From the NCBI GenBank assembly GCA_031270395.1, contig JAISXU010000014.1, positions 1 through 32,028 on the forward strand: DNA of 32,028 bases. Direction: 5' to 3'. The translations under genes and the position numbers were made by a program. The notes under the pieces are model-generated. The model was not told the DNA's origin, did not search any database, and worked only from the letters and a program-made list of their open reading frames with translations. The stretch comes from Oscillospiraceae bacterium (GTDB taxonomy: Bacteria > Bacillota > Clostridia > Oscillospirales > Oscillospiraceae). Of the stretch, positions 289 through 31,389 are shown in pieces; the first letter of the stretch is position 1; every line of letters starts with the position of its first letter.

Positions 289-316
289 CATCGGGCAAAT
301 AACAATAGACATCAGG

Positions 317-350
317 GCCCCACAGTGACCGTTCCCGGTCGCTGCGGGGC
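317..350 (+). terminator. GC-rich hairpin after the SLH gene, possible terminator
   Basis: Arms at 317-331 and 336-350 (15 nt each, one A-C mismatch and one G-T wobble) close a TTCC tetraloop, 28 bases after the stop codon at 288. The following bases are CT-rich (TCCTCCTCTCC) rather than a clean T run, so factor-independent termination is uncertain. The right arm runs directly into the repeat element at 353, so the hairpin may belong to that element instead. Confidence 0.4.
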
Positions 351-352
351 TC

Positions 353-394
353 CTCCTCTCCAAAACGCAAGTATTTCATTGGGTTGCGATTCGG
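353..394. repeat. Palindromic repeat element, degenerate copy A
   Basis: This matches the hairpin family seen at 829-863, 28798-28832, 28888-28922 and 31256-31290. It has the TCCTCTCC lead-in, a left arm CCAAAACGCAA (360-370), the loop ATTTCATT and a right arm GTTGCGATTCGG (383-394). The right arm has decayed relative to the perfect copy at 28888-28922. Read on the minus strand it still gives the family peptide NPMKYLRFGEEEPRS. Confidence 0.75.
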
Positions 395-751: not shown

Positions 752-876
752 GGCTCGTCCTCACGCGCTGCGCTAAGACTCGCGTCCGCGTAAACGCGAA
801 CGCTCGCTCGCTTCGCGGTTCGTCCTCTCCGAAACGAACCCACTCCGTTGGGCTTCGTTTCGGTTTTGGACGGGGG
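752..876. repeat. Mosaic palindromic element, copy B
   Basis: The modules run in order: CTCGTCCTCACG...GCTAAGACTCGC, a small hairpin CGCG-TAAA-CGCG (787-798), GCTCGCTCGCTTCGCGG, the lead-in TCCTCTCC and a long hairpin at 829-863 (arms CCGAAACGAA and TTCGTTTCGG), then TTTTGGACGGGG. The same order, with paired stem changes, recurs inverted at 31250-31388 and partly at 28727-28922. It ends 35 bases before the stop codon of the minus-strand gene at 912. Confidence 0.8.
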
Positions 877-5990: not shown

Positions 5991-6045
5991 GCGTGACACG
6001 ACCTTTCAATATATGGATGGCGTGAAATATTTGTGACCGCTGTTA

Positions 6046-6143
6046 TATTAATTCGCACGATATGTCGTGCCGAATTAATAGCGCGCATATGAGCGAGAAA
6101 AGTCCCGAGCGGCTTTGCCGTAAGGATTAGCCTTTTCGAGCGG
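6046..6143. repeat. Palindrome plus hairpin module, compact copy
   Basis: Part one is a palindrome, TATTAATTCGCACG (6046-6059) against CGTGCCGAATTAATA (6066-6080). Part two (6081-6143) is GCGCGCATATGAGCGAG, then AAAAGTC, GAGCGGCTTTGCCGTAAGGAT and CTTTTCGAGCGG. Part one recurs at 28945-28979 and part two at 26181-26237 and 28648-28702, both in reverse orientation. Here the two parts are contiguous; at 28647-28980 they are separated by other repeats. The remaining gap 6144-6349 holds no gene or clear signal that I can see. Confidence 0.8.
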
Positions 6144-6349
6144 TGTAGTATTTAGACGACCGTACCGGAGAAAAGTTCCAAAACCAATGAAACCGCGGAC
6201 GAGCCGTGCCCGCCGGCGCCGGTTGTCCCCGGCGGAGCCTGCCGCGCCGCCGCGTCACACAAAGCAAAACCGGTCGCTCGCGTACATGACAATACGCGGG
6301 AAACCGGCAAATCGTTCGTCGCTACTCGCGGTAACCGTCGCGGGACGGG

Positions 6350-26149: not shown

Positions 26150-26179
26150 TTTTATGACCGTTCCTTTCCTCTCTTAACA

Positions 26180-26284
26180 ATCCGCTCGAAAAGTCTTATC
26201 CTTACGGCAAAGCCGCTCGGGACTTTTCTCGCTCATGAGCGCATGTTTCTCGCCGCCTATGGCGGCAACCGAAACATATGCGCG
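26180..26284. repeat. Hairpin module plus nested palindrome, intermediate copy
   Basis: The segment 26181-26237 is nearly identical to 28648-28702 (TCCGCTCGAAAAGTCTTATC ... GACTTTTCTCGCTCA). It is followed by a second palindrome, arms GCGCATGTTTC (26239-26249) and GAAACATATGCGC (26271-26283), with an inner GCCGCC-TAT-GGCGGC stem. In the compact copy at 6046-6143 this second palindrome is absent; at 28647-28980 it has been opened by more inserts. The repeat ends exactly at the coaE stop codon. Confidence 0.8.
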
Positions 26285-26926
26285 TCAGCGTGATAAGTCC
26301 GCTATCACGCCCTCGAAAAACTTGGCGCATTTTTTTTCAAACTCTGCCGGGTCGCCGCCGTCGTTTATGAGTATGTGGTCGCAGTTGCGCCGGAAAAACG
26401 TGTCCGAGCGCTGCGCCGCGATGCGCGTCCGAGCGACTGGAGCGCTTATGCCGTCCCTCGCCGTTATGCGAGCCTCCCGCAGCCGCGCGGGGGCGAGCAC
26501 CCCCACGACGACGTCGCATATCTCATGAAGTCCGCTCTCAATCAGCGCGATGGCGTCTATTGCCGCGAGTCTCCCCCCGTCCGCGCTCCAGCGCTCCAGA
26601 CGCCGCCGCACCTCCGCGTCGACGTACTTGTGGGTTATGCCGTTGAGATCCTCCAGCGCCCCGGCGTCGCCGAATACTATGCGTCCGAGCGCCCGCCTGT
26701 CTATTCCGTCCGGCGCCGCCGCCCCGGGGAAGCGTTCCGCGATCTCTCGCCGCAGAGCGGCGTCTCCCGCCAGCAGCTCATGGTAGACCTCGTCGCAGTC
26801 GATCGTCAGCGCTCCCAGTCCGCCGAGCGCCCGCAGAGCCGACGTCTTGCCCGCTCCCGTGCCGCCCGTTATGCCGAAGATCAAAGTCGCGCCCGTGCCC
26901 GCGCCGCCCGCGCGCCGCGCCGTCAT
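26285..26926 (-). CDS. coaE: Dephospho-CoA kinase
   Basis: A 213-residue P-loop kinase that phosphorylates dephospho-CoA in the last step of coenzyme A synthesis. The Walker A is GITGGTGAGKT (18-28), followed by TIDCDEVYHELL (substrate-binding DxD/E region) and by IALIESGLHEICDVVVGVLA. C-terminal DHILINDGG matches the conserved end of the family. The first 12 residues (MTARRAGGAGTG) extend beyond the usual start. The ATG at 26926 overlaps the tsaC stop codon by 4 bases (ATGA), showing translational coupling; a reading 48 codons longer inside tsaC is not credible. Arg/Ala richness reflects high GC. Confidence 0.93.
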   Translation of the reverse strand: MTARRAGGAGTGATLIFGITGGTGAGKTSALRALGGLGALTIDCDEVYHELLAGDAALRREIAERFPGAAAPDGIDRRALGRIVFGDAGALEDLNGITHKYVDAEVRRRLERWSADGGRLAAIDAIALIESGLHEICDVVVGVLAPARLREARITARDGISAPVARTRIAAQRSDTFFRRNCDHILINDGGDPAEFEKKCAKFFEGVIADLSR

Positions 26927-28624: not shown

Positions 28625-28646
28625 TGGGTACTACCTTTCAATACTA

Positions 28647-28980
28647 ATCCGCTCGAAAAGTCTTATCCTTACGGCAAAGCCGCTCGGGACTTTTCTCGCT
28701 CAAATGCGCATGTTTCTCGCCGCGTCGTCCTCACGGACTACGCTAAGCTCGGAGCGTCGTATACTCCGCTCCTCGCCCGCTCCGTCGTGCGTCCTCTCCG
28801 AAACGAACCCACTTCGTTGGGCTTCGTTTCGGCTTTGGACGGGGGCGCGTAAACGCGAAAGCTCGCTCGCTACGCGGTTCGTCCTCTCCAAAACGCAACC
28901 ATTTCATTGGGTTGCGTTTTGGCTAACGCCGAACATTTGCGCGCTATTAATTCGGCACGACATACCGTGCGAATTAATAT
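28647..28980. repeat. Large nested mosaic of palindromic elements
   Basis: Left to right: the AAAAGTC/GACTTTT hairpin module (28648-28702); GCGCATGTTTCTCGCCGC; a stretch with GTCCTCACGGACTACGCTAAGCTC; hairpin C (28798-28832, CCGAAACGAA...TTCGTTTCGG); TTTGGACGGGG; the small hairpin CGCG-TAAA-CGCG (28846-28857); GCTCGCTCGCTACGCGG; hairpin D (28888-28922, perfect 13-bp stem CCAAAACGCAACC with loop ATTTCATTG); and the palindrome TATTAATTCGGCACG (28945-28979). The outer modules match the compact copy at 6046-6143, so the inner part looks inserted. No gene is visible in the 364-base gap 28625-28988. Confidence 0.85.
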
Positions 28981-28988
28981 TTTGACCA

Positions 28989-31249: not shown

Positions 31250-31389
31250 CCAAAACCGAAACGCAACCCAATGAAATGGTTGCGTTTTGGAGAGGAGGAG
31301 CCCCGTAGCGAGCGAGCTTTCGGCTTTAGCCGGAAGCGAGTCTTAGCGGAAGGGTGCTCCGACGAAGCGCAGTCCGTGTGGACGAGCCG
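31250..31389. repeat. Mosaic palindromic element, inverted copy E
   Basis: Reverse orientation of copy B (752-876). The long hairpin at 31256-31290 has arms CCGAAACGCAACC and GGTTGCGTTTTGG. It is followed by AGAGGAGGAGCCCCGTAGCGAG, a small hairpin CGGCT-TT-AGCCG (31321-31332) in the place of CGCG-TAAA-CGCG, then GCGAGTCTTAGCGG and a GTCCGTGTGGACGAG end. On the plus strand the peptide PKRNPMKWLRFGEEEPRSE is read through the hairpin. Confidence 0.8.

Follow-up and report, generated by a model that had tools for sequence, protein, structure and literature searches.

The question raised by this locus is what kind of element is represented by five short, related hairpins that recur within a single stretch of DNA from an Oscillospiraceae bacterium (the window: 32,028 nt of contig JAISXU010000014.1, assembly GCA_031270395.1), and whether these hairpins are best understood through their fold, a peptide that they could encode, or their own mobility. 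A preliminary description had placed them at positions 353-394, 829-863, 28798-28832, 28888-28922, and 31256-31290 (here copies A to E), and had proposed that they are constrained both in structure and in reading frame and recall the palindromic elements of Rickettsia. All five hairpins are present at these positions. The exchanges within the stems were found as described, with CCGAAACGAA/TTCGTTTCGG in copies B and C and CCAAAACGCAACC/GGTTGCGTTTTGG in copy D, as was the paired exchange in the small inner hairpin (CGCG-TAAA-CGCG in copies B and D, CGGC-TAAA-GCCG in copy E), and the starts of copies C and D lie 90 bases apart. The 35-base hairpin that had been taken as the repeat unit is real but covers only the 3' half of the repeat: the five hairpins belong to a longer element of ~107-116 nt, which is named R1 here, and make up its 3' portion.

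The organization of R1 was determined by aligning the surroundings of the window hairpins and consists, in this order, of a CGTC tag, a stem-loop (H1), the linker TCCTCTCC, and a 13-bp hairpin (H2). The basal stem of H1 is made up of eight pairs and one bulged base and is followed by an internal loop (GCTAAG / GCTCGCTCGCT in the host genus), an inner stem, and a tetraloop. In the host genus H2 is followed by the tail TTTGGACG, so that the ends of the element there read CGTCC...GGACG. Nearly all full copies in the alignments (A1, A2, and A5) and in the own genome start with CGTC, with the caveat that this tag helped to set the start points in A1. The R1 copies of the window fold as single strands far better than their shuffled counterparts (z -2.9 to -5.5).

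Copy B (756-863, plus strand; 117.8 bits and E 1.1e-23 with the covariance model described below) is full length, its sequence comprising CGTC, H1, linker, and H2 with a TTTTGGACG tail that extends to ~872. Also full length is copy C (28726-28832, plus strand; 111.7 bits, E 2.8e-22), which has an H1 of the GGAGCGTCG type, its H2 at 28798-28832 (plus strand), and the tail CTTTGGACG to 28841. Copy D (28846-28922, plus strand; 53.5 bits), with its H2 at 28888-28922 (plus strand), is truncated at the 5' end and starts within the inner hairpin of H1, a breakpoint that was found elsewhere too. Copies C and D thus form a 1.5-mer, and at least six further examples of this form occur in the genome; recurrent 1.5-mers are broken at that inner hairpin. 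Copy E (31256-31364, minus strand; 108.6 bits) is full length. Directly before it, at ~31365-31384, an extra R1 head of ~20 nt was observed (CGTCCACACGGACTGCGCT; CGTCCTCACGCGCTACGCT), and such extra ~20-nt heads before a complete R1 were also seen at the own-genome loci C34, C67, C77, and C91; they join the complete element at GCGCT of the internal loop. Copy A (310-394, plus strand; 39.3 bits, E 8e-6) is decayed or partial, and in its fold H2 (360-394) and the linker are preceded by an unrelated upstream stem.

The covariance model was built from 38 diverse R1 copies. In the host MAG (2.17 Mb in 95 contigs, 88.7% complete) it gave 94 R1 matches at an E-value of 0.01 or better. Among 120 Oscillospiraceae genomes, 85 genomes from 75 of 106 genera had R1 according to the model, and 35 genomes had no match to it; some genomes of the family carry at least 32 copies, copy counts in genomes other than the host being lower bounds. 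Across the class Clostridia, R1 was detected in 36 of 196 sampled genomes (E-value cut-off: 1e-5). The R1 core pattern was also found in four virus-labelled contigs, two of which were confirmed by the covariance model. The basis of this survey is MAG data. Rfam 15 gave no match at the gathering threshold in the window, and a search of seven loci at a relaxed threshold returned four matches, all of them below gathering and off R1. In the open-access literature we found no description of R1 from Firmicutes or Clostridia; a survey of RNAs in the human microbiome (PMC8040213; 3161 motifs) may include it.

For the main covariation analysis, copies gathered by BLAST similarity were aligned using MAFFT. 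In this alignment 87% of the cells pair and double changes occur in 25 of the 31 pairs, and the number of double-change cells (225) compares with 84 ± 8 after shuffling and 24-57 when the partner strand was slid. RNAalifold gave double changes in 19 of 21 pairs. The structural constraint put forward in the preliminary description is confirmed by this strong covariation, and was strongly upheld by the covariance model, by the search of the genome and its relatives, and by the covariation check alike. Whole stems have been replaced while the R1 fold persists: downstream of the HPr gene, a congener (G002) has an R1 in the same place and orientation as copy E of the window, with an H2 sequence that is unrelated to that of copy E and still forms the hairpin.

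The level at which the fold acts was addressed by counting G.T and A.C mismatches at well-paired positions, which numbered 19 and 18 in alignment A1, 19 and 37 in A2, and 18 and 26 in A5 (56 vs. 81 in total), A2 and A5 having been gathered with the covariance model. An RNA transcribed from the modelled strand should favor G.U, and since G.T is not in excess the pairing looks like a property of the DNA. The counts are suggestive of an R1 pairing that is selected, or corrected, at the DNA level, and the A.C excess in one alignment would fit an RNA from the opposite strand.

The second proposed constraint, on reading frame, was contradicted by the copies in the host genome. Stops interrupt the proposed frame in 30 of the 56 full own-genome copies (25-41 of 56 in the other five frames), the lengths of full copies (107, 108, 109, and 110 nt) vary by single bases, and the three codon positions differ little in their variability within H2 (0.79, 0.69, and 0.87 bits). 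With genes called by a custom codon-usage script trained on long open reading frames, none of 90 own-genome copies lay inside a called gene and overlap was restricted to 37 nt or less at a gene end, whereas overlap as low as this would be expected for only ~24% of copies placed at random. A coding or frame constraint was rejected because of the stops and the flat codon-position variability; the frame shared by the five window copies is a result of homology, and the peptide reading of R1 is incidental in the host genome. Five own-genome genes (at L212, L230, L251, L209, and L254) were observed to end a few codons inside R1, where they stop at the TAA of the conserved GCTAAG and acquire tails such as RPHGLR. 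A single in-frame intragenic R1 was found, in a genome of another Clostridia family (G288; 108 nt, L273:1501-1608, minus strand), where it adds ~36-40 residues to an SNF2/N6-methylase-type gene of a mobile element. The R1 segment is missing from homologues of this gene on plasmids and viral contigs, and because of this copy the comparison with Rickettsia is not empty. Further long open reading frames spanning R1 were considered and rejected, either because the recognizable protein begins beyond R1 (L170 and L162) or because they are without Pfam support (L275 and L268).

With respect to neighboring genes, both orientations of R1 and both gene ends are used, and no gene recurs beside it (84 Pfam families, none of which occurs in more than two of 83 neighbor proteins), on which ground cis-regulation of a gene class was rejected. 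R1 was observed just upstream of, or inserted within, the start of lepA at L101:6640-7460, L103:2200-2480, L352, and L354, and as several genomes thus have an R1 in the leader of this gene a function may be what preserves some copies.

Comparison of occupied and empty sites provided information on the mobility of R1. Copies C and D lie inside another dispersed repeat, named R2 (28640-28985, plus strand), the inverted ends of which are TATTAATYCGC-like. There are many near-identical copies of R2 in the MAG, some of which hold R1 in the central hairpin and have been multiplied together with it; within the window R2 also occurs without R1, as a short form at 6045-6152 (minus strand; inverted repeats I3, I4, and I6) and as a copy with its own hairpin at 26179-26300 (plus strand; D4), the right end of which is approximate. 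In the congener G002 the orthologous prfA-ABC spacer lacks the composite of R2 with copies C and D and measures 29 nt vs. 368 nt.

Duplicated left flanks, in which a stretch that stops 0-2 nt short of CGTC recurs on the far side of R1, downstream, were found in 16 of 150 copies, vs. 0.13% of mismatched flank pairs at a score of 14 or more, and in a second set in 10 of 52 copies, vs. 0.3% in the control. These duplications are 14-76 nt long, with identities of, for example, 66/66, 74/76, and 25/25, and are interpreted here as putative target-site duplications. The CGTC side is precise, with a T before CGTC in 137 of 179 flanks, and the H2 side is ragged, with 0-81 nt of unshared sequence. In the lepA cases at L101 and L103 the duplicated flank includes the ribosome-binding site and the start codon, and at L101 an intact lepA follows as a result.

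Several further arrangements were observed around R1 insertions. Four 177-bp tandem units lie between the convergent genes glmS and pyrG at L152:1690-2330 (G013:C1), each unit consisting of R1 and ~69 nt of the glmS 3' end. Five copies from four genomes (L178, L356 with two copies, L364, and L370) lie within 0-2 nt of the parS-like palindrome GTTTCACGTGAAAC, of which only six sites were present in all DNA fetched, and at L178 and L356 a parS-like site stands on both sides of the R1 insertion. Targeting of insertion to hairpin ends was unsupported (9% and 7% vs. 5% in the controls).

In our reading R1 is probably a mobile DNA element of the REP/MITE kind, non-autonomous and defined by structure rather than sequence; its movement itself is something we infer. 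A trans-acting enzyme would recognize the folded single strand or a cruciform, joining would be precise at the CGTC end and imprecise on the H2 side, and long target duplications would be left at insertion. Purifying selection would then remove gene-breaking insertions and leave mainly intergenic copies, and insertions near gene starts or ends may persist because the gene is made whole again by the duplication.

Among known repeats, the nearest kind to R1 is the CGTC-tagged REPs described by Di Nocera et al. (2013; PMC3733652), although R1 belongs to none of their four families (CGTC-1 to CGTC-4). R1 shares with these repeats the terminal, unpaired CGTC tag, a palindromic stem with compensatory variation, a mainly intergenic dispersal with occasional in-frame copies inside genes, tandem reiteration together with flanking DNA, the insertion of some copies in other palindromes, and the lack of a dedicated transposase (PMC3733652). 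CGTC-1 to CGTC-4 are, however, single hairpins of 20-40 bp, with 8-9-bp stems that open with A-T pairs, loops of 4-5 nt, and a CCA tail, and the phyla for which CGTC repeats were named are Proteobacteria, Chlorobi, Bacteroidetes, Spirochaetes, and Thermotogae, with Firmicutes or clostridia unmentioned (PMC3733652), whereas R1 occurs in Clostridia, departs from the single-short-stem form with two hairpins in ~107 nt, a bulged two-part H1, and the fixed linker, has G-C or C-G as the first pairs after CGTC, and has no CCA tail. The likeness to Rickettsia palindromic elements noted in the preliminary description stands in part: RPE-4 and RPE-6 carry a CGTC end as well (as reported in PMC3733652), and R1, like the Rickettsia elements including RPE-1, can lie in frame inside genes. 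Such copies are rare, however, and in place of the frequent in-frame insertion and open frame of the Rickettsia elements R1 is overwhelmingly intergenic, with G288 as the one exception, and shows no frame conservation. With the GTAG REPs and REPINs that are associated with RAYT (PMC3116915, PMC2817692) R1 has in common that they are short tagged palindromes that form dimers, are intergenic, and are conserved in structure more than in sequence, but R1 has no GTAG tag and neither adjoined nor flanked a PF01797 gene at 40 loci.

A Y1/RAYT mobilizer had looked associated with R1 in a small early subset and was rejected on the larger dataset: in 120 genomes the occurrence of Y1 transposases showed no association with that of R1 (Fisher p 0.41-0.83), no Y1 gene adjoined R1 or was flanked by R1 repeats at 40 loci, and Y1_Tnp (PF01797) was absent from the own MAG (88.7% complete). 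To our knowledge, long variable duplications would also not be expected from single-strand transposases of the IS200/IS605 type. A MITE derived from a DDE insertion sequence has terminal inverted repeats of 15-30 bp that match those of the transposase gene, and its target duplication is short and of fixed length; the inverted ends of R1 are only CGTCC/GGACG (5 bp), occur in its own genus and not in relatives, and its duplications vary from 14 to 76 nt. BOX, RUP, ERIC, and other MITE-like repeats of bacteria are modular, 50-150 bp long, folded, and nested in or near other repeats. R1 is similarly modular, folded, and nested, and differs in spanning a bacterial class and in having its own tag and linker; we know of no sequence relation between them.

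Of the explanations that do not take R1 for a mobile DNA element, an amplified functional structured RNA, or an mRNA leader or trailer element serving as a regulator, processing, or stability site, is unlikely, even though it would account for the strong conservation of structure together with the conserved internal-loop and linker sequences, for the recurrence of R1 in the lepA leaders, and for the position downstream of HPr that is common to two congeners. The neighbor genes are random, R1 is found in both orientations and at both gene ends, the modelled strand shows no G.U excess, Rfam has no match, and in more than a quarter of the family genomes (35/120) R1 itself was not matched. More doubtful still is a SINE-like retroelement, the opposite-strand RNA of which would be reverse-transcribed at a nick. 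Such an element predicts that the CGTC end (the 3' end of the RNA) is precise and the H2 end ragged and padded with filler, that some copies are truncated, and that the target duplications are long and variable. The precise T/CGTC junction, the 0-81 nt of filler on the H2 side, the 14-76-nt duplications, and the retention of the CGTC end in head-only fragments are in line with it, as is the prevalence of A.C over G.T in A2 (37 vs. 19) that opposite-strand G.U would give; this prevalence is, however, not seen in A1 and weak in A5, the 1.5-mers are without the CGTC end, and among the R1-adjacent genes no reverse transcriptase stood out.

The remaining two explanations are highly improbable. A Rickettsia-type palindromic element that is inserted in frame, under coding constraint, and kept for its peptide could appeal to the 108-nt copy in the SNF2/methylase gene, which is absent from the homologues, and to the five own-genome genes that run into R1 and stop at GCTAAG, yet it is at odds with the stops in more than half of the full copies, lengths that are not multiples of three, and the absence of intragenic copies among the 90 in the host genome. 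We give slightly less credence again to passive recent segmental or replication-slippage duplications without element-specific mobility, which the tandem arrays with flanking DNA (the four 177-bp units in G013), the 1.5-mers, and the extra heads would fit. Unrelated sites have only R1 in common, with a precise end, the orthologous locus differs by presence and absence, and the cross-genus divergence with compensatory changes goes far beyond recent duplication, so that the objection that the copies might stem from a few recent duplications was not borne out.

For R1 as a mobile DNA element, a more specific proposal can be made only tentatively, and we think it more apt to be wrong than right: R1 might serve as the non-autonomous partner in a transposition mechanism that is undescribed and widespread in Clostridia. 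The folded CGTC end would be joined precisely and 14-76 nt of target duplicated, either by a recombinase acting on single-strand DNA or, in what would be a bacterial SINE, by target-primed reverse transcription, with genes being spared by the regenerated ends.

R1, which is dispersed between genes in many gut Clostridia, is probably copied by a trans-acting enzyme; a conserved insert that codes for protein it is not. Since 2013 the CGTC-tagged palindromes have stood as orphan repeats for which no mobilizer is known, and a two-hairpin CGTC family present in ~70% of the sampled Oscillospiraceae genomes, with young insertions that have clean left junctions and long target duplications, is a tractable place to seek one. 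The R1 covariance model fills a place where Rfam has none, and R1 explains spurious gene ends and peptides as well as broken assemblies in the genomes of gut Clostridia.
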